In this document: piece by piece, positions 1,154 through 40,801 of the stretch | Numbering within the stretch: position 1 is the stretch's first letter | How the letters are laid out: every line of letters starts with the position of its first letter | DNA from: Haladaptatus caseinilyticus | GTDB lineage: Archaea > Halobacteriota > Halobacteria > Halobacteriales > Haladaptataceae | Direction: 5' to 3' | NCBI RefSeq assembly: GCF_026248685.1 | Contig: NZ_CP111036.1 | Location: 2,418,001 to 2,482,000, forward strand | Length of the DNA: 64,000 nt | The notes under the pieces: model-generated | Database searches by the model: none | The model's input: only the letters and a program-made list of their open reading frames with translations | Told to the model about the DNA's origin: nothing | Translations under genes and position numbers: made by a program

Positions 1154-3229
1154 CTACAACTTTTCGAGGCCGATATCGGTCGACCAACCGAACTCACCAT
1201 CGACGATTACAGGAATCTGTTCCAGTCGGAAGAACTGGACTAGCGTATCCCGATCGACGGATAGCTTTGGCGTCGAACCACCGTTCAAAAAGTACGTTTC
1301 GATGTTTTCGATAAACGGGGTGATGATGGATCCCATCCCTCGCTCGACCGTCGGATAGGTTATGAGTTGAACGTCGTACTCGTCGTCGGTATCCGTTTCA
1401 GTGGTGACATCACACAGAATCGGCGTACCGCTTTCACTCTGCGCGATTTCGATGCTCCCATCCCCGACGACGATGTACTGATTACCGACTATCTGTCGGT
1501 TCCGGGCGATGGTAAGGGCGGATCGGAGGGAGAATCCTCGATTGAGAAGCCGAGCGATGGTACGCCCGATTTGAATCGCGCTTTTGTTAGCGATTTCACT
1601 GTACGTGACTATTCCTCCGATGCTGCCGGATTCGATCAGTTCCAATCCCTGTTCGTAGGACCGACAACCGTTCAAAAGGAACGTCTCGACCCCAACGTCA
1701 TCGATCGTACCAACATCGAGTTCGCCATCATGGCAGATGAATTTTCCATCCTTGACGTGGCCGATGTAGTGCAGAAAATCGGTGGAAGCGGTGAGAACCG
1801 ATTCCAATTCACGGACGGAAAGGTTGCGATGTACGTCGATATCGAATCGAAGCTCCTGACGTTTTCCATAGAGATTGTTTCCACCATCGTACTCCGGGCT
1901 CATTTCTTGCTCGTTACAGACGACGGTGATATCGATTTCGCCCGTCGATGATGACCGTCCGAGTTTGTTCTCGAACGACTGTTTGATTAGTTTGTTCGCA
2001 CCGATGGGCATCCCGCCACCGAGCCACGCGTGTTCCAAGGAGTCCGTTCGATTCGGCGCAACGTAGGAGTGGTGCGCTTGTTGCTGTCCACGGTGTTTTG
2101 CTTTCGTCCCGCGGAAGAAGCTATCGATTGGCTCCGGTGTTTCGGGCGACGGTTTGCGACGTTTTTCGCCCTTCGTCGAGATGAGGGAGAGGTTATTCAC
2201 GAGATACGGAATCGCTTCGAGGTTCGTCACGTCCTCGGAGACGGTCGTCGAGAGTAACCACGTCGGAACATGCTCTTTTATCGTATCAAACGGAACGTCG
2301 AGGTAAGCTTCGATTTGCTCCGAGAGGCTCCGTTCGTACAACTCGTCGAAGGCGAAATCGAGGTCCGACTCGATCATTTGCCGTTCGTGGAGCGGTATCT
2401 GATAGAACCCCTCAGTTCGTGTGATACAATCGAGGAAAAGAGTCTGTTTGAGTACGCGTTCGATCTCGCCTTCGAAGCCTCTCTCTGGATGGGTGAGGGA
2501 ATGAGCGAAGCCATCATCCGTGACGAGCGTCGGTTCGTCACCCGGAACGATATTCGCGCCCAAATAGTATGCGAGGGTGCTCGACGGATAGATCATCGAC
2601 AGTTCGGGAGGCAGTTCGATTCGAACACCCGTCTCCGGACGTGAAATTTCGTTCGGGATGTGAAATCGGTCATCGAGTTCGATTTTGGGAGGATGTCCCC
2701 TGAGCGAGGGAAGCGACCGCTCGCAACTCCGTGTCTTGAGTGCCGAACCGAACGTCGAAAAAGCAGCCATCACGTCACGTGGGTCTGCCGTCGTCGTCAC
2801 CGTCGCTCCTGGCTGTTCGTGATACGAGCGTGCCCCGATTCGAACCCGTGTTTCCGCCCCAAAATCGAACTCCATTCGATCCGCTGACGTAGCGATGGTG
2901 GCTTCGCTAGTCATTCTCAGATATATCTTGATCGGGGCGTTGAGTTCGATCAAATAGTCCCCTTTCGGAAGTTGTTCGTATGCAAAATCTTCGACTTTTG
3001 TCAACACATCCCCGTCCGCACTTCGGACATATGCGATAACGATGTGCGGTAAAACGAGCTTGTTGGTCGCGATTTCGGCCGCGTTGTCGATGGGGAACGA
3101 AAATTGATCGACGCCGGTCGAAGTCGGTTGGACAGGTGTCGAAGTCTGAATTGGGAACTGCCGCCGCTGAATGGGGTCGATGACCGTTATACCGGGGGCG
3201 TCGGTATCGGGCCGAAATATCGGTTTCAT
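1154..3229 (-). CDS. CHAT-domain (caspase-like) protein
   Basis: A 691-residue protein with a C-terminal CHAT domain, a clan CD peptidase fold related to caspases and separases. The catalytic dyad is visible: His in LHYIGHVKDG (residue ~491) and Cys in FLLNGCRSYEQG (~522). The typical G-SIGGIVTYSEIANKSA and ARLLNRGFSLRSALTIAR helices follow. The first ~450 residues match nothing I know and may be a sensor or scaffold. A longer start at 3373 is possible but overlaps the upstream gene by 74 bases; the ATG at 3229 avoids this and begins MKPIFRPDTDAPG. The gene lies directly downstream of, and collinear with, the HalOD1/DUF7504 gene, which suggests co-transcription. Peptidase activity is inferred from the dyad. 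The substrate is unknown. Confidence 0.75.
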   Translation of the reverse strand: MKPIFRPDTDAPGITVIDPIQRRQFPIQTSTPVQPTSTGVDQFSFPIDNAAEIATNKLVLPHIVIAYVRSADGDVLTKVEDFAYEQLPKGDYLIELNAPIKIYLRMTSEATIATSADRMEFDFGAETRVRIGARSYHEQPGATVTTTADPRDVMAAFSTFGSALKTRSCERSLPSLRGHPPKIELDDRFHIPNEISRPETGVRIELPPELSMIYPSSTLAYYLGANIVPGDEPTLVTDDGFAHSLTHPERGFEGEIERVLKQTLFLDCITRTEGFYQIPLHERQMIESDLDFAFDELYERSLSEQIEAYLDVPFDTIKEHVPTWLLSTTVSEDVTNLEAIPYLVNNLSLISTKGEKRRKPSPETPEPIDSFFRGTKAKHRGQQQAHHSYVAPNRTDSLEHAWLGGGMPIGANKLIKQSFENKLGRSSSTGEIDITVVCNEQEMSPEYDGGNNLYGKRQELRFDIDVHRNLSVRELESVLTASTDFLHYIGHVKDGKFICHDGELDVGTIDDVGVETFLLNGCRSYEQGLELIESGSIGGIVTYSEIANKSAIQIGRTIARLLNRGFSLRSALTIARNRQIVGNQYIVVGDGSIEIAQSESGTPILCDVTTETDTDDEYDVQLITYPTVERGMGSIITPFIENIETYFLNGGSTPKLSVDRDTLVQFFRLEQIPVIVDGEFGWSTDIGLEKL

Positions 3230-3299
3230 TGTTTCATTGATGTGCAACGATTTTGGCTCTGCCTTCGTGGAGGATGAATGCTCGCGTTCAACGACGTCG

Positions 3300-4250
3300 T
3301 TAGATCGAGAACCACGTCGTGGTGTAGTTCGTATCGTGTAGATGCCACCGCTGTTCCGGCCCGTCTTTGCCAATTTTCAGCTCGATAGTCACGTCGAACA
3401 GTGATTCGACCGCTTGAACCGAGGACGATTCGTATGCTTGCGGGAGGATGTACTGACCCATTCCGGAGACTTCCTCCACTGTCTCGGTGACCGTTTGCAA
3501 GAAATCGGTTACGGTCCGGTCATCTTCCTCGCTGGAGAGTATTTGTAGTGAGTCGAAACAAAAACGAAGTTCTCCCGGTTCGAATCCCATTTGTCGGCGC
3601 TGCAGTTCGAATATTTCCGTTCGAATCTCCGCTTCGAAGTCGTCGAGAGACCCATACACGGGCGATGTCGATAGCTGACTCGGGCTGTCACTGGTCTGTG
3701 CTTGTGCGGCCGACCGCACCGCAGCTTCGTACGTCAGGAGATGTGCGTGGTCGAGGTTCGCATTCGCCCGTGAGAGTCTCGTCCGAGCAACGTCGATGTC
3801 GCGTCCGTAGAGGGCGAACAGGTGGGTTCGGTCGCGAGCTACACCTCCCAAAAACTGTGCGCTCAACTGCTCGAAAACGTCCGTTGGCACGTCACCAGTG
3901 AGGAGTAAATTTCCGCCGGATCGTTTCAATCGTCCGAGTTCCGATTCGATCTCGACGGTGCCATCGCTGTCTGCAGTGACGTAGTGACCAGCGAGATGGA
4001 AGGTGACACACCCACTCGTGCGAGGCGTTCCATCTTGAAGCGGTTGGAATATATCCTCTAGCGCGTCCGGGTCAATACATTGATACAACGACTCGGGGAC
4101 CTCGGCAGACCCGACTTTGGCTTCCTCCGCCATTTGTTGAATGATGAGTGCAGTTAAGCTATCCTCGCTCGTCCAATCGTATTGGAACGTTATGGGTGCC
4201 TCCACACCACACATGAACGGGGAGGTGGCATCGTCGTCTTGAATACTCAT
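3300..4250 (-). CDS. HalOD1 output domain + DUF7504 (degenerate RecA-like) protein
   Basis: The protein has 316 residues. Residues ~25-100 form a HalOD1 domain, an output module found in haloarchaeal signalling proteins (SLTALIIQQMAEEAKVG, then LYQCIDPDALEDIF and CVTFHLAGHYVTADSDGTVEI). Residues ~105-316 form a DUF7504 domain, a KaiC/RecA-like fold without an obvious Walker A; diagnostic parts are LKRSGGNLLLTG, ELRFCFDSLQIL and the GPEQRWHL end. The C-terminal half aligns well with the protein at 40073-40801. It is the promoter-proximal gene of a pair with the CHAT gene, so a regulatory or sensing role towards the CHAT protein is likely but unproven. No membrane segment is seen. Confidence 0.75.
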   Translation of the reverse strand: MSIQDDDATSPFMCGVEAPITFQYDWTSEDSLTALIIQQMAEEAKVGSAEVPESLYQCIDPDALEDIFQPLQDGTPRTSGCVTFHLAGHYVTADSDGTVEIESELGRLKRSGGNLLLTGDVPTDVFEQLSAQFLGGVARDRTHLFALYGRDIDVARTRLSRANANLDHAHLLTYEAAVRSAAQAQTSDSPSQLSTSPVYGSLDDFEAEIRTEIFELQRRQMGFEPGELRFCFDSLQILSSEEDDRTVTDFLQTVTETVEEVSGMGQYILPQAYESSSVQAVESLFDVTIELKIGKDGPEQRWHLHDTNYTTTWFSI

Positions 4251-4494: not shown

Positions 4495-4872
4495 ATGAGC
4501 GATACACCGAACGACCGGGAGCAGGTTCTCATAGAGTTGCTGAAATTCTTGGAAACCGTTGATCCCGATGTTCTCATTTCCACTTCCGAGATGGTGTATA
4601 CGCTACTGAAAAAAGAACAACGACGGCATCTCATCCTCTATCTTACGGAACAGGAAACCGCGACACCGCTTTCACGGGTCGCAATGGAGGTCACGAGCCG
4701 TTGTAACGCTACTCCCTTTACCGAGGTTACTCCTTCCGAACAGGAACGAACACGTATCCGTCTTGAACAGGAACATCTCCCACGGCTTGCTGATTACGGC
4801 ATTCTCTCCTGGAAATACGGTGACGAGATGGTGGATCCACTACCGGCGACACTCCCATCGGAGGAGGAGTGA
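4495..4872 (+). CDS. DUF7344 domain protein, putative winged-helix regulator
   Basis: A 125-residue protein. The segment MVYTLLKKEQRRHLILYLTEQETATPLSRVAMEV followed by RIRLEQEHLPRLADYGILSWKYGDEMV matches DUF7344, a haloarchaeal winged-helix-like domain built as 'N-E-R-R-R-x2-L-x2-L...L-x2-H-LP-x-L-x2-x-G-x-(V/I)'. The family is thought to bind DNA, but no target is known. Its stop codon overlaps the GTG start of the helicase (GTGA, 4869-4872), so the two proteins are probably translationally coupled. Confidence 0.75.
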   Translation: MSDTPNDREQVLIELLKFLETVDPDVLISTSEMVYTLLKKEQRRHLILYLTEQETATPLSRVAMEVTSRCNATPFTEVTPSEQERTRIRLEQEHLPRLADYGILSWKYGDEMVDPLPATLPSEEE

Positions 4873-7226
4873 CGAAACCGGTTAGAACTTCCACCCCAAA
4901 CATCTCCTCAGTGCAGGATACAATCGACTGGCTTCGCGGGCGACCGTACTACGAAGGGCAAATCGCTCGACACGAGACGATTCCCGGTCACGATGGCGAG
5001 TTTCGAGCAATTTCCCTCGAATCGCGTCTCGAATCAGCCCTTGCGAACCGCGGCATCGACCGACTCTACCGGCATCAAGCCGAGGCCGTCGAAGAGTTCC
5101 GGGCGGGGAAAAACATCGTCATCGCCACCCAAACCGCGAGTGGCAAGAGCCTCGCATACACGATTCCGGCGTTCGAACGGGCGATGGATCATGGGGGCAG
5201 AACCCTCTACATCGCTCCACAGAATGCCCTCATCAACGACCAAGAGGAGAACTTGTCGGAACTCGCTCGCGACCTGGGCTTTGGCAGTCGGGTCTCGGTA
5301 GACCAGTACACCGGACGACTCGACAAAAACGAGAAACGAGCGGTCCGTGACCGCCATCCAACCGTCCTACTCACGACGCCCGATATGCTTCATTATGCCC
5401 TCCTGCCGTACGCCCATCGTCTCTGGGATTGGTTTTTCAAGGGGTTGGAGACGGTCGTCGTCGACGAAGTACACGAATATCGCGGCGTCTTCGGCAGTCA
5501 CGTGGCACTCGTCCTCGGACGGCTCGCGCGGATCTGCGACCGGTTCGATTCATCCCCGCAGTTCGTCTGCTGTTCGGCGACTATCGGTAATCCGGTCGAA
5601 CACGCCAGTGCGGTCACCGGCCACCCCGAACCGACGTTTCACCTCGTGGACGACGACACGAGTCGGACGGGCCCGACCCACTGGGTGCTGTGGAATCCTC
5701 CGGAATACGAGGACGAAAATCGCGGTAGTGGACGCAGAAAGTCGAGTCACGGCGAGACGAAGCGACTGTTCACCGACCTCGTCACTCAGGACTATCAAAC
5801 GTTGGTGTTCACCCGAGCCAGACAGGCCGCGGAACGCTACGCGATGGAGAGTGCGGACGAACTCCGGCGGCGAGGGGAACAGGATGCCGCCTCCGAAATA
5901 TCGGCGTATCAAGCCGCGCTTCGAAACGACCGGCGACAGGAGCTGGAGTCGGGACTCCACTCCGGCGACGTTCGCGGCGCGTGGAGCACGAACGCGCTGG
6001 AACTCGGCGTGGATATCGGCGGTCTCGATGCCGTTTTGCTCGATAGCTATCCCGGGACGCGGATGGCGGCGTTCCAGCAGGCCGGGCGAGCAGGTCGGGG
6101 AACTGACGCCTGCCTCGTCACCCTCGTCGCCGGCGAAGATCAGTTAGACCAGTTCCTGATGCGGAATCCCGACGAATTCTTTTCGGGCGAGCCTGAACGA
6201 GCGGTGGCAAATCCGAGAAACGAAGAACTGCTACCGGACCACGTTACATCCGCCGCTCGCGAATCGTGGCTTTCGCCCGACGACGAGCGGTACTTTGGCG
6301 AGGAGTTTCCCGGTCTCGTCGCCGATCTCGAATCGGATGGCGAACTGAAACGCCGACGGACGGATACCGGCGTTCGTTGGGTGTTCGATGGCGATGGCAG
6401 CCCACAGCACGAAATGAGCCTGCGAACGATCGACGAGCGGGAAATCGACCTGCTCGACCGCTCCCGTGACGATGTTATTTCCTCATTGCCCTTCAGCGAC
6501 GCACTGAACGATGCCCATCCCGGTGCCATCTATCATCACCAAGGGCAGTCGTACGAGGTGGTCGACCTGGATTTGACGAAGGACGTGGCAGAACTGTCCC
6601 CCACGTGGGCGGACTACCACACGAAAACGCTCCACGAGAAGGGGATTACGGTCGAAGAAGATGTAGACGAAAAGACACTCTCGACTCGGTCCGACTGTAT
6701 CGTACGATTCGCCGACGTGACGATGAGAAAACGTATCACCGGGTTCGAGCGGCGGGACGCGAAACGCGGTGAGACGCTCGGAAGCGAATCACTCGACCTG
6801 CCGGAACTCACGCTCCGGACAAAGGCGCTTTATTTCACGATACCGGACGATGTTGAGCGCGAACTCCGCGCCATGGACGGGGAGTTCGACGGCGCGATTC
6901 ACGCCGCGGAACACGGGATGATTTCGCTCTTTCCGCTGGAACTGCTATGTGACCGTCGTGACATCGGCGGCCTCTCCACGCCGGTACACCCACACACCGG
7001 TGTGAGTACCATCTTCATCTACGACGGGTATCCAGGCGGTGTCGGTCTCACCCGCGAAGGCTACGAGACGGTCGAGTCGCTCATGCGCAATACGTGCGAG
7101 ATGATTCGCGACTGCAACTGCGACTCCGGATGCCCGTCTTGCATCCAATCGCCACATTGTGGAAACGCCAACGAACCGCTCGACAAACGCCTTTCTTCCC
7201 ATCTGCTCTCACTGCTCACGGAATGA
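4869..7226 (+). CDS. DEAD/DEAH-box helicase with C-terminal DUF1998 (MrfA/Hrq1 family)
   Basis: A superfamily 2 DNA helicase of 785 residues. Motif I is ATQTASGKS (~85-93), motif II DEVH, motif III SAT (CCSATIGNP) and motif VI QQAGRAGRG. The C-terminus carries the DUF1998 zinc module, with Cys in CNCDSGCPSCIQSPHCGN. This order is that of Bacillus MrfA and of eukaryotic Hrq1, 3'-5' helicases that repair mitomycin-type crosslinks and other adducts; the same role is inferred here. Translation starts at GTG 4869, overlapping the DUF7344 stop, so the helicase may be under control of, or coupled to, that small protein. Length is normal and all motifs look intact. Confidence 0.92.
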   Translation: MTKPVRTSTPNISSVQDTIDWLRGRPYYEGQIARHETIPGHDGEFRAISLESRLESALANRGIDRLYRHQAEAVEEFRAGKNIVIATQTASGKSLAYTIPAFERAMDHGGRTLYIAPQNALINDQEENLSELARDLGFGSRVSVDQYTGRLDKNEKRAVRDRHPTVLLTTPDMLHYALLPYAHRLWDWFFKGLETVVVDEVHEYRGVFGSHVALVLGRLARICDRFDSSPQFVCCSATIGNPVEHASAVTGHPEPTFHLVDDDTSRTGPTHWVLWNPPEYEDENRGSGRRKSSHGETKRLFTDLVTQDYQTLVFTRARQAAERYAMESADELRRRGEQDAASEISAYQAALRNDRRQELESGLHSGDVRGAWSTNALELGVDIGGLDAVLLDSYPGTRMAAFQQAGRAGRGTDACLVTLVAGEDQLDQFLMRNPDEFFSGEPERAVANPRNEELLPDHVTSAARESWLSPDDERYFGEEFPGLVADLESDGELKRRRTDTGVRWVFDGDGSPQHEMSLRTIDEREIDLLDRSRDDVISSLPFSDALNDAHPGAIYHHQGQSYEVVDLDLTKDVAELSPTWADYHTKTLHEKGITVEEDVDEKTLSTRSDCIVRFADVTMRKRITGFERRDAKRGETLGSESLDLPELTLRTKALYFTIPDDVERELRAMDGEFDGAIHAAEHGMISLFPLELLCDRRDIGGLSTPVHPHTGVSTIFIYDGYPGGVGLTREGYETVESLMRNTCEMIRDCNCDSGCPSCIQSPHCGNANEPLDKRLSSHLLSLLTE

Positions 7227-40072: not shown

Positions 40073-40801
40073 TCAGAGCGCTAACCAGTCCGTCGTCACG
40101 TCTTGTTGGACTAACTTCCATCGCTGCTCGGCCTGTCCACCCCTCATCCGTACTTCGACGACGGCGTCGAAAACGGGGGCAAGCGTGTTGACGATCGCTG
40201 AATCCATTTGACCTGGAAGATGGAAGTGAGCCATCCCGTTGACGTTTCGGACGCGGGCAGTCAAAATGTGAAGGAATCGGAACACTGACTCCTGGTCGTG
40301 GTCCGCTAAAAGCGGTGCGAGCGAATCGAAGCATACTCGAAGTTCTCCCGAGGCCAGTTCGCCTCGTTCGCGTTCGAACTCATCGATACATTCGGAAACC
40401 GTGATTCCAAGCCGGGGAAGGCTCCCACTCGTGAGGACTACTCTGTCCGGATCGTCACCGATTCCGGTTTCCTCGTGGTAATCATCCGCCACTGTCGTGG
40501 CACTTCGTGTGTGAGTCGATCGTTCGATGATTTTCACACGACCGCCGTTCGAATGGGTGTTCCCACACGCGCCGTGGGCACATTCCCTTTTCCCGTCGGT
40601 TTGAACGAACAACCGCTGTCGAGGCTCGGTCCGTGATTCACCGAGAAATCGGTCACAGGCTGGCCCCATCACTGGTTGTGGTCCAACTAGGAGAAGTCCG
40701 CTTCCTCGACGTTTGAGTCCCGCCAGTGTCCGAGTAAAAACGGCTGCCGTCTCGGACGTGTGGGTACTACTTTCGCCCCGATACTGCATTGTTTCACACA
40801 T
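40073..40801 (-). CDS. DUF7504 (degenerate RecA/KaiC-like) protein
   Basis: A 242-residue single-domain protein. The N-terminal AGLKRRGSGLLLVGPQP replaces a Walker A loop, so ATP binding is doubtful. The C-terminal ELRVCFDSLAPLLADHDQESVFRFLHILTARVRNVNGMAHFHLPGQMDSAIVNTLAPVFDAVVEVRMRGGQAEQRWKLVQQDVTTDWL aligns residue for residue with the second half of the HalOD1 protein at 3300-4250. It lacks the HalOD1 domain. The middle has three Cys (ECAHGACGN) of unknown meaning. Function unknown; probably signalling. Confidence 0.72.
   Translation of the reverse strand: MCETMQYRGESSTHTSETAAVFTRTLAGLKRRGSGLLLVGPQPVMGPACDRFLGESRTEPRQRLFVQTDGKRECAHGACGNTHSNGGRVKIIERSTHTRSATTVADDYHEETGIGDDPDRVVLTSGSLPRLGITVSECIDEFERERGELASGELRVCFDSLAPLLADHDQESVFRFLHILTARVRNVNGMAHFHLPGQMDSAIVNTLAPVFDAVVEVRMRGGQAEQRWKLVQQDVTTDWLAL

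Follow-up and report, generated by a model that had tools for sequence, protein, structure and literature searches.

The protein family and its partner

Is the neighbourhood of a caspase-like protein and a haloarchaeal signalling protein a functional unit, and what would such a unit do? The question is raised by a gene pair within 64,000 nucleotides (nt) of the Haladaptatus caseinilyticus genome (NZ_CP111036.1, positions 2,418,001 to 2,482,000; this whole stretch is called the window here). A gene for a HalOD1-DUF7504 protein is followed, after a gap of 70 nt, by a gene for a protein of the CHAT family. The original prediction had described two collinear genes, and both were found, on the minus strand (Table 1). 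They represent a real, conserved and overlooked family of predicted proteases together with a co-evolving signalling partner.

The reading frame of the CHAT-type gene is open from a TTG at position 3373. Since its homologues begin at the ATG at position 3229 (MKPVF in locus L007, MKPIF in locus L008), we used this start, which results in a protein of 691 amino acids (aa), and consider a start at the upstream TTG unlikely. The predicted residue numbers Cys522 and His491 fit this start, and both codons were checked in the sequence.

Predicted fold and His-Cys dyad of the CHAT-type protein

Standard profiles hardly detected the CHAT-type protein. Pfam made no CHAT call (PF12770) on the window protein itself, and a translated search of its own genome with the Pfam CHAT model gave no match; the model matched 9 of 28 homologues, with a best E value of 6.1e-5. 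A sequence-profile search of the PDB returned chance matches only. The AlphaFold model, which was built from the 28 homologues, reached a mean predicted local distance difference test score (pLDDT) of 85.8 and a predicted template modelling score (pTM) of 0.85. When this model was compared to the PDB by Foldseek, clan CD proteins were at the top (E 7.6e-7 to 1e-3). Separase was the best match (5fby, E 7.6e-7) with about 220 aligned columns, and the SAVED-CHAT filament, gingipains, human and yeast separase, Craspase and Csx29 were also found. Caspases matched more weakly (E 0.006 and above). Unlike separase, the window protein has no helical-repeat arm, and identity over the aligned part is only about 16%. 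In the model H491 follows a strand formed by residues 483-489 and C522 follows a strand formed by residues 514-520, which is the arrangement of clan CD. The C-terminal half of the protein is predicted to adopt a clan-CD/CHAT peptidase fold, and the structure prediction that had been proposed as a check on this protein came out in its favor.

The motifs HYIGH and FLLNxCxSY are conserved among the homologues. The H491/C522 dyad was present in all 34 homologues selected by BLAST and in 127 of the 128 homologues of a wider set. The wider set is mildly biased, as a part of it was fetched with a pattern able to include the Cys; the set of 34 is free of this bias. Dyad and motifs were invariant across haloarchaeal paralogues that have diverged to about 30% identity. 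Homologues without the dyad had been named as evidence that would speak against the prediction, and they amounted to one single protein, encoded at locus L144. The assignment as a CHAT-family protein with intact His-Cys dyad was borne out by the predicted fold, the PDB matches and the conservation in both sets.

The N-terminal part of the protein had been described as about 450 unassigned residues. Its fold is indeed unassigned, but its length is closer to 350 residues plus a disordered linker (residues 355-386). The region consists of a beta-rich module (residues 1-146) and an alpha/beta module (residues 150-352). It was modelled alone with a pLDDT of 92.4, and its fold had no match at E<=0.001 in the PDB or in the viral library; the best matches, to the beta sandwiches of GH31 enzymes, were weak. 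We also considered a second, pseudo-caspase domain of the type present in separase or gingipain; this was rejected, as no clan-CD protein was among the matches listed. Two motifs, RSxPxxRGHPP and DC..R, are invariant in this region, and R171, S172, R177, H179, D267, R271 and E282 are among its invariant polar residues. Because of these residues the region may bind a ligand.

Pairing with DUF7504 proteins

We counted the neighbors of CHAT genes in 17 genomes that were not chosen by neighbor; positions were assigned to 54 CHAT loci and 114 DUF7504 matches. A DUF7504 gene was present within 1 kb of 20 CHAT loci, compared to 0.24 expected by chance in any orientation. In 17 of these 20 cases the two genes shared a strand and the DUF7504 gene came immediately before the CHAT gene. 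This pairing is genuine, but it is not a general rule, and the majority of DUF7504 genes lie elsewhere in the genomes. Several open frames upstream of CHAT genes without DUF7504 neighbor were considered as genes, and are likely antisense or spurious as judged by Pfam and composition. A true KaiC gene close to the paralogue at locus L002 was rejected as part of a module, as a UspA gene on the opposite strand intervenes.

Evolutionary distances of the CHAT proteins and their partners correlated with r = 0.87 over 65 linked pairs (best of 2000 shuffles 0.11). For 22 pairs from Haladaptatus, which include several paralogues per species, the correlation was 0.95 (best shuffle 0.52). Because of this correlation, the two genes seem to have been duplicated and to have diverged together. 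Among the linked partners, 63 of 64 matched DUF7504 and 36 of 64 matched HalOD1; DUF7504 is the constant part of the partner and HalOD1 is optional. The predicted pairing with a HalOD1-DUF7504 protein was confirmed as conserved. As a module it is real and recurrent, but it is not universal and does not depend on HalOD1.

In the partner encoded in the window, Pfam assigned HalOD1 to residues 29-102 (E 2.6e-18) and DUF7504 to residues 112-291 (E 1.8e-43). In their passages on these domains Galperin et al. 2018 (PMC5847659) list HalOD1-iKaiC as an architecture and describe iKaiC as a divergent, possibly inactivated KaiC ATPase. In our reading DUF7504 equals this iKaiC, and the upstream gene of the window shares the listed architecture; unlike the situation described here, an adjacent CHAT peptidase is not mentioned in those passages. 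The DUF7504 alignment has no conserved GKT of the Walker A motif GxxxxGKT, and the stretch that we judged to be equivalent is TGDVPTDVFEQLS. The DUF7504 domain is probably a degenerate KaiC. The disk-determining factor DdfA (PMC10869688) shares HalOD1 with the window partner, which matched the corresponding NCBIfam model with 59 bits, below the cut-off of 70 bits. DdfA differs in that its model covers 67 positions and comprises HalOD1 only, without DUF7504.

Distribution of the CHAT family

A family match was present in 365 of 391 sampled Halobacteria genomes (93%), and the number of CHAT copies differed between genomes. In a scan of genome contigs, a single-sequence query found no relative, while an alignment query found 483. 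Five complete copies are present in the Haladaptatus genome of the window, besides a remnant of the C-terminal part. The remnant is located at L006 (positions 1417-2640; contig C1 of this genome, G000, at about 668,000), where an intact HalOD1-DUF7504-type gene (312 aa) is followed by a short part of the CHAT sequence (about core residues 620-676). This locus is a decayed pair that has retained the partner.

In a phylum-wide sample, members outside Halobacteria were restricted to four genomes of one family. These homologues (L144-L147) are full-length or nearly so, belong to genomes of about 3 Mb and are encoded close to a dnaG-like gene. The module had been predicted to be specific to haloarchaea; this applies to the pairing, which was seen only in haloarchaea here, but not to the CHAT family itself.

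A scan of 2.9 million viral contigs, which depends on a conserved peptide pattern, detected no family member, and phage records had none either. Copies were present in 25 plasmid records of Haladaptatus, Halorussus and others. Most of them are annotated as hypothetical protein; among those listed, one is annotated as CHAT domain-containing protein and one as caspase family protein. Some annotators have recognized the domain, yet the family was overlooked. The iKaiC-CHAT pair occurs on Haladaptatus plasmids (L039, L040, L041, L044), and three of these copies belong to one strain of Haladaptatus halobius. Amplification of the pair thus extends beyond the chromosome. We found no paper describing the family in the open-access literature, in agreement with the earlier statement that the module had not been described.

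Other partners of CHAT genes

A FastTree phylogeny of 128 proteins separated a clade linked to TbsP from a main clade with DUF7504 upstream on many branches. In 10 of 13 members of this sister clade a TbsP gene, identified by Pfam, lies directly downstream. TbsP regulators adjoin sister-clade CHAT genes of the Haladaptatus genome as well (L005/L135), but have no linkage to the pair of the window. The genome G124 has 11 CHAT matches, none of them linked to DUF7504, and TbsP adjoins CHAT at five loci (L117, L118, L119, L120, L122); the TbsP-CHAT pair has multiplied in this genome. No DUF7504 gene is present upstream of CHAT in the Haloarcula group.

A subclade of 14 within the main clade is accompanied by two other small unnamed proteins. 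One or both of these, c6 (about 230 aa) and c7 (about 137 aa), flank CHAT at L064, L071, L072, L080, L084, L087, L093, L096, L097 and L101, and the examples scanned had no Pfam match.

DUF7344, which we guess to be a winged helix from its sequence, was present near 17 of 41 iKaiC-linked loci and 1 of 47 others (Fisher p 5e-6, a value that is too small due to kinship among the sequences). At L095 the CHAT gene lies between two HalOD1-like proteins, and a DUF7504-DUF7344 fusion comes next. This fusion and the change of partners from clade to clade led us to conclude that the same few signalling parts are shuffled around the protease. Receiver or receiver-kinase proteins are encoded near other CHAT loci, and the neighbors of CHAT loci comprise transcription regulators, response regulators and genes of core metabolism.

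A gene for hypermotility of Haloferax volcanii, HVO_2248, was also considered as a family member. According to the published report, 66 of 166 Halobacteria have this gene, next to ura2, apt3 and tif2b2 (PMC7824242). The Haloferax CHAT locus L105 has REC-HalX, IMP-dehydrogenase-like and aminotransferase-like neighbors, and judged by this context, not by sequence, HVO_2248 is unlikely to belong to the family.

Possible function of the gene pair

In the reading that we rank first, and to which we give about even chances, the two genes would code for a protease and for a signalling protein dedicated to it; this partner would control the protease, which would act on transcription regulators. This reading builds on the computed fold, the dyad, the co-inheritance of the two genes and the recurrent regulator neighbors. 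DUF7504 would be a KaiC-type domain that lost ATP hydrolysis together with its P-loop. Along with HalOD1, it would receive a cellular signal and switch the protease through binding. The active protease would then cut one or a few proteins and so change gene expression; its likeliest substrate would be either the partner itself or the product of a neighboring transcription regulator gene, which would be DUF7344 in this clade and TbsP in the sister clade. Duplication of the pair would yield parallel copies within one genome.

A known CHAT protease, Csx29, cleaves Csx30, which is encoded at its locus, and in this way frees a sigma factor from inhibition (PMC10028731). The proposed relay would be similar to Csx29-Csx30-CASP-sigma, but would serve core haloarchaeal regulation instead of immunity. 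The window protein resembles Csx29/TPR-CHAT (Craspase) and SAVED-CHAT in its predicted clan-CD fold, the His-Cys dyad and a conserved partner gene, and possibly also in acting on a regulator encoded at its locus. Unlike these proteins, it has no recognized TPR or SAVED part and has its own N-terminal region of about 350 residues. No CRISPR or nucleotide-signal genes were seen alongside, and the family is near-universal in one archaeal class, unlike the CHAT proteins of conflict systems.

Several points weigh against control of the protease by the partner. Proteolysis, an activating or controlling role of the partner and the substrate were all inferred. Since 34 of the 54 loci in the unselected count have no DUF7504 neighbor, a linked iKaiC cannot control every member of the family. 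The co-evolution statistic partly mirrors the common descent of neighboring genes, parts of the 128-protein tree are weakly supported with long branches, and linkage of partner and protease could serve expression only. The relationship of DUF7504 to KaiC is also faint: the top PDB matches of the DUF7504 profile were nearly all KaiC but weak (E about 0.1), and hhalign against the KaiC proteins of the same genome gave an E value of 0.004 but a probability of 8%, compared to E values of 0.15 and 0.44 for two unrelated profiles. Finally, the L144 protein, an outgroup homologue from outside Halobacteria, has R and D in place of the dyad, and this loss implies that the fold can also serve a purpose other than catalysis.

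The strongest alternative, possible but clearly less likely than control by the partner, is that HalOD1-DUF7504 (in the other clade, TbsP) is itself the substrate: the CHAT protein would sense a signal by its own N-terminal region and cut its neighbor to switch it on or off. This is consistent with the type III-E loci, in which the gene for the substrate accompanies that of the CHAT protease (PMC10028731), with the many invariant charged residues of the N-terminal region, as might suit a ligand site, and with neighbors that differ between clades, as substrates would. However, we identified no conserved cleavage loop, for which no systematic search was made, and many CHAT genes have no recognized partner, so a linked substrate is not general either.

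The original prediction had placed the pair among defense or cell-death effectors: HalOD1-DUF7504 would sense infection and unleash the CHAT protease, which would kill or arrest the cell. CHAT proteases are known from bacterial defense systems such as Craspase and SAVED-CHAT, and the plasmid copies and the variable copy number would fit to such a role. Defense systems are expected to show a patchy, mobile or island distribution, but apart from some plasmid copies the family was found in nearly all Halobacteria, with several chromosomal paralogues beside core genes. PADLOC had no match for either protein, no copies were found in viral or phage sequences, and the neighbors were regulators and metabolic genes, although they were not scanned systematically for defense genes. 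We do not favor a defense role and regard abortive infection as improbable. Least probable of all is a non-proteolytic scaffold or receptor that uses the dyad for structure or ligand binding, in line with the lost dyad of L144 and the low Pfam CHAT scores, since the catalytic residues and both motifs do not vary among the haloarchaeal paralogues.

Control of the protease by its partner therefore ranks above a role of the partner as substrate, followed by defense and the scaffold. Archaeal caspase-fold proteases were thought to be rare, with 93 archaeal p20-domain proteins in a survey of 2019 (PMC6426788). The CHAT-fold family in about 93% of the sampled Halobacteria has been hidden since standard profiles barely detect it and its members are mostly called hypothetical protein. 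Strong caspase-like activity with cleavage after Asp was reported in 2012 for extracts of Haloferax volcanii (PMC3615174). According to its authors there were no homologous genes to account for it, and they themselves raised the proteasome. A caspase-fold family exists in the same group of organisms, although such activity was also reported in archaea in which the CHAT family was not found or not sought. As Haloferax species carry the iKaiC-CHAT pair (L098, L105, L106, L110-L112, L115; the named records obtained did not include H. volcanii itself), the family is a candidate for the source of the haloarchaeal activity, and no more than that. The activity thereby gains candidate genes in genetically tractable organisms, and some of the many HalOD1/iKaiC signalling proteins gain a candidate output enzyme. 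A widespread CHAT family that is paired with a probably degenerate KaiC suggests control of archaeal cells by switched protein cutting. A wider proposal, which we consider rather unlikely, is that Halobacteria have a core proteolytic network in which caspase/separase-fold proteases with degenerate KaiC-HalOD1 or TbsP partners switch transcription by site-specific cleavage, and which would explain at least part of the caspase-like activity.

Features and neighbors of the pair in the window

Table 1. Positions of the gene pair, its domains and the adjacent DUF7344 gene in the window.
Feature	Position	Strand	Basis
CHAT-type (clan CD) cysteine peptidase homologue, 691 aa	1154..3229	-	Homologue starts, AlphaFold, Foldseek
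Caspase-like/CHAT domain, about residues 396-600, borders approximate	1430..2044	-	AlphaFold secondary structure, Foldseek, Pfam CHAT in 9/28 homologues
Codon of Cys522, predicted nucleophile, motif FLLNxCxSY	1664..1666	-	Homologue alignments
Codon of His491, predicted catalytic His, motif HYIGH; His487 likewise invariant	1757..1759	-	Homologue alignments
Disordered linker between N-terminal region and CHAT domain, residues 355-386	2072..2167	-	pLDDT <50
N-terminal region of the CHAT protein, residues 1-352	2174..3229	-	pLDDT 92.4, no PDB match at E<=0.001
HalOD1-DUF7504 protein (probably a degenerate KaiC, iKaiC), 316 aa, predicted regulatory partner	3300..4250	-	
DUF7504 (iKaiC) domain, no GxxxxGKT Walker A in alignment	3378..3917	-	
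HalOD1 domain	3945..4166	-	Pfam
DUF7344 protein, 125 aa, divergent neighbor, recurs with iKaiC-CHAT loci	4495..4872	+	

The stop of the DUF7344 gene is overlapped by a few bases by a gene for a DEAD/H helicase with MrfA Zn-binding domain (4869-7226, plus strand), which matched NCBIfam TIGR03817 below the cut-off of the model. The window has a second DUF7504 gene (40073-40801, minus strand, 242 aa). It is a lone gene without adjoining CHAT gene, and it is the top match to the DUF7504 model in the whole genome.

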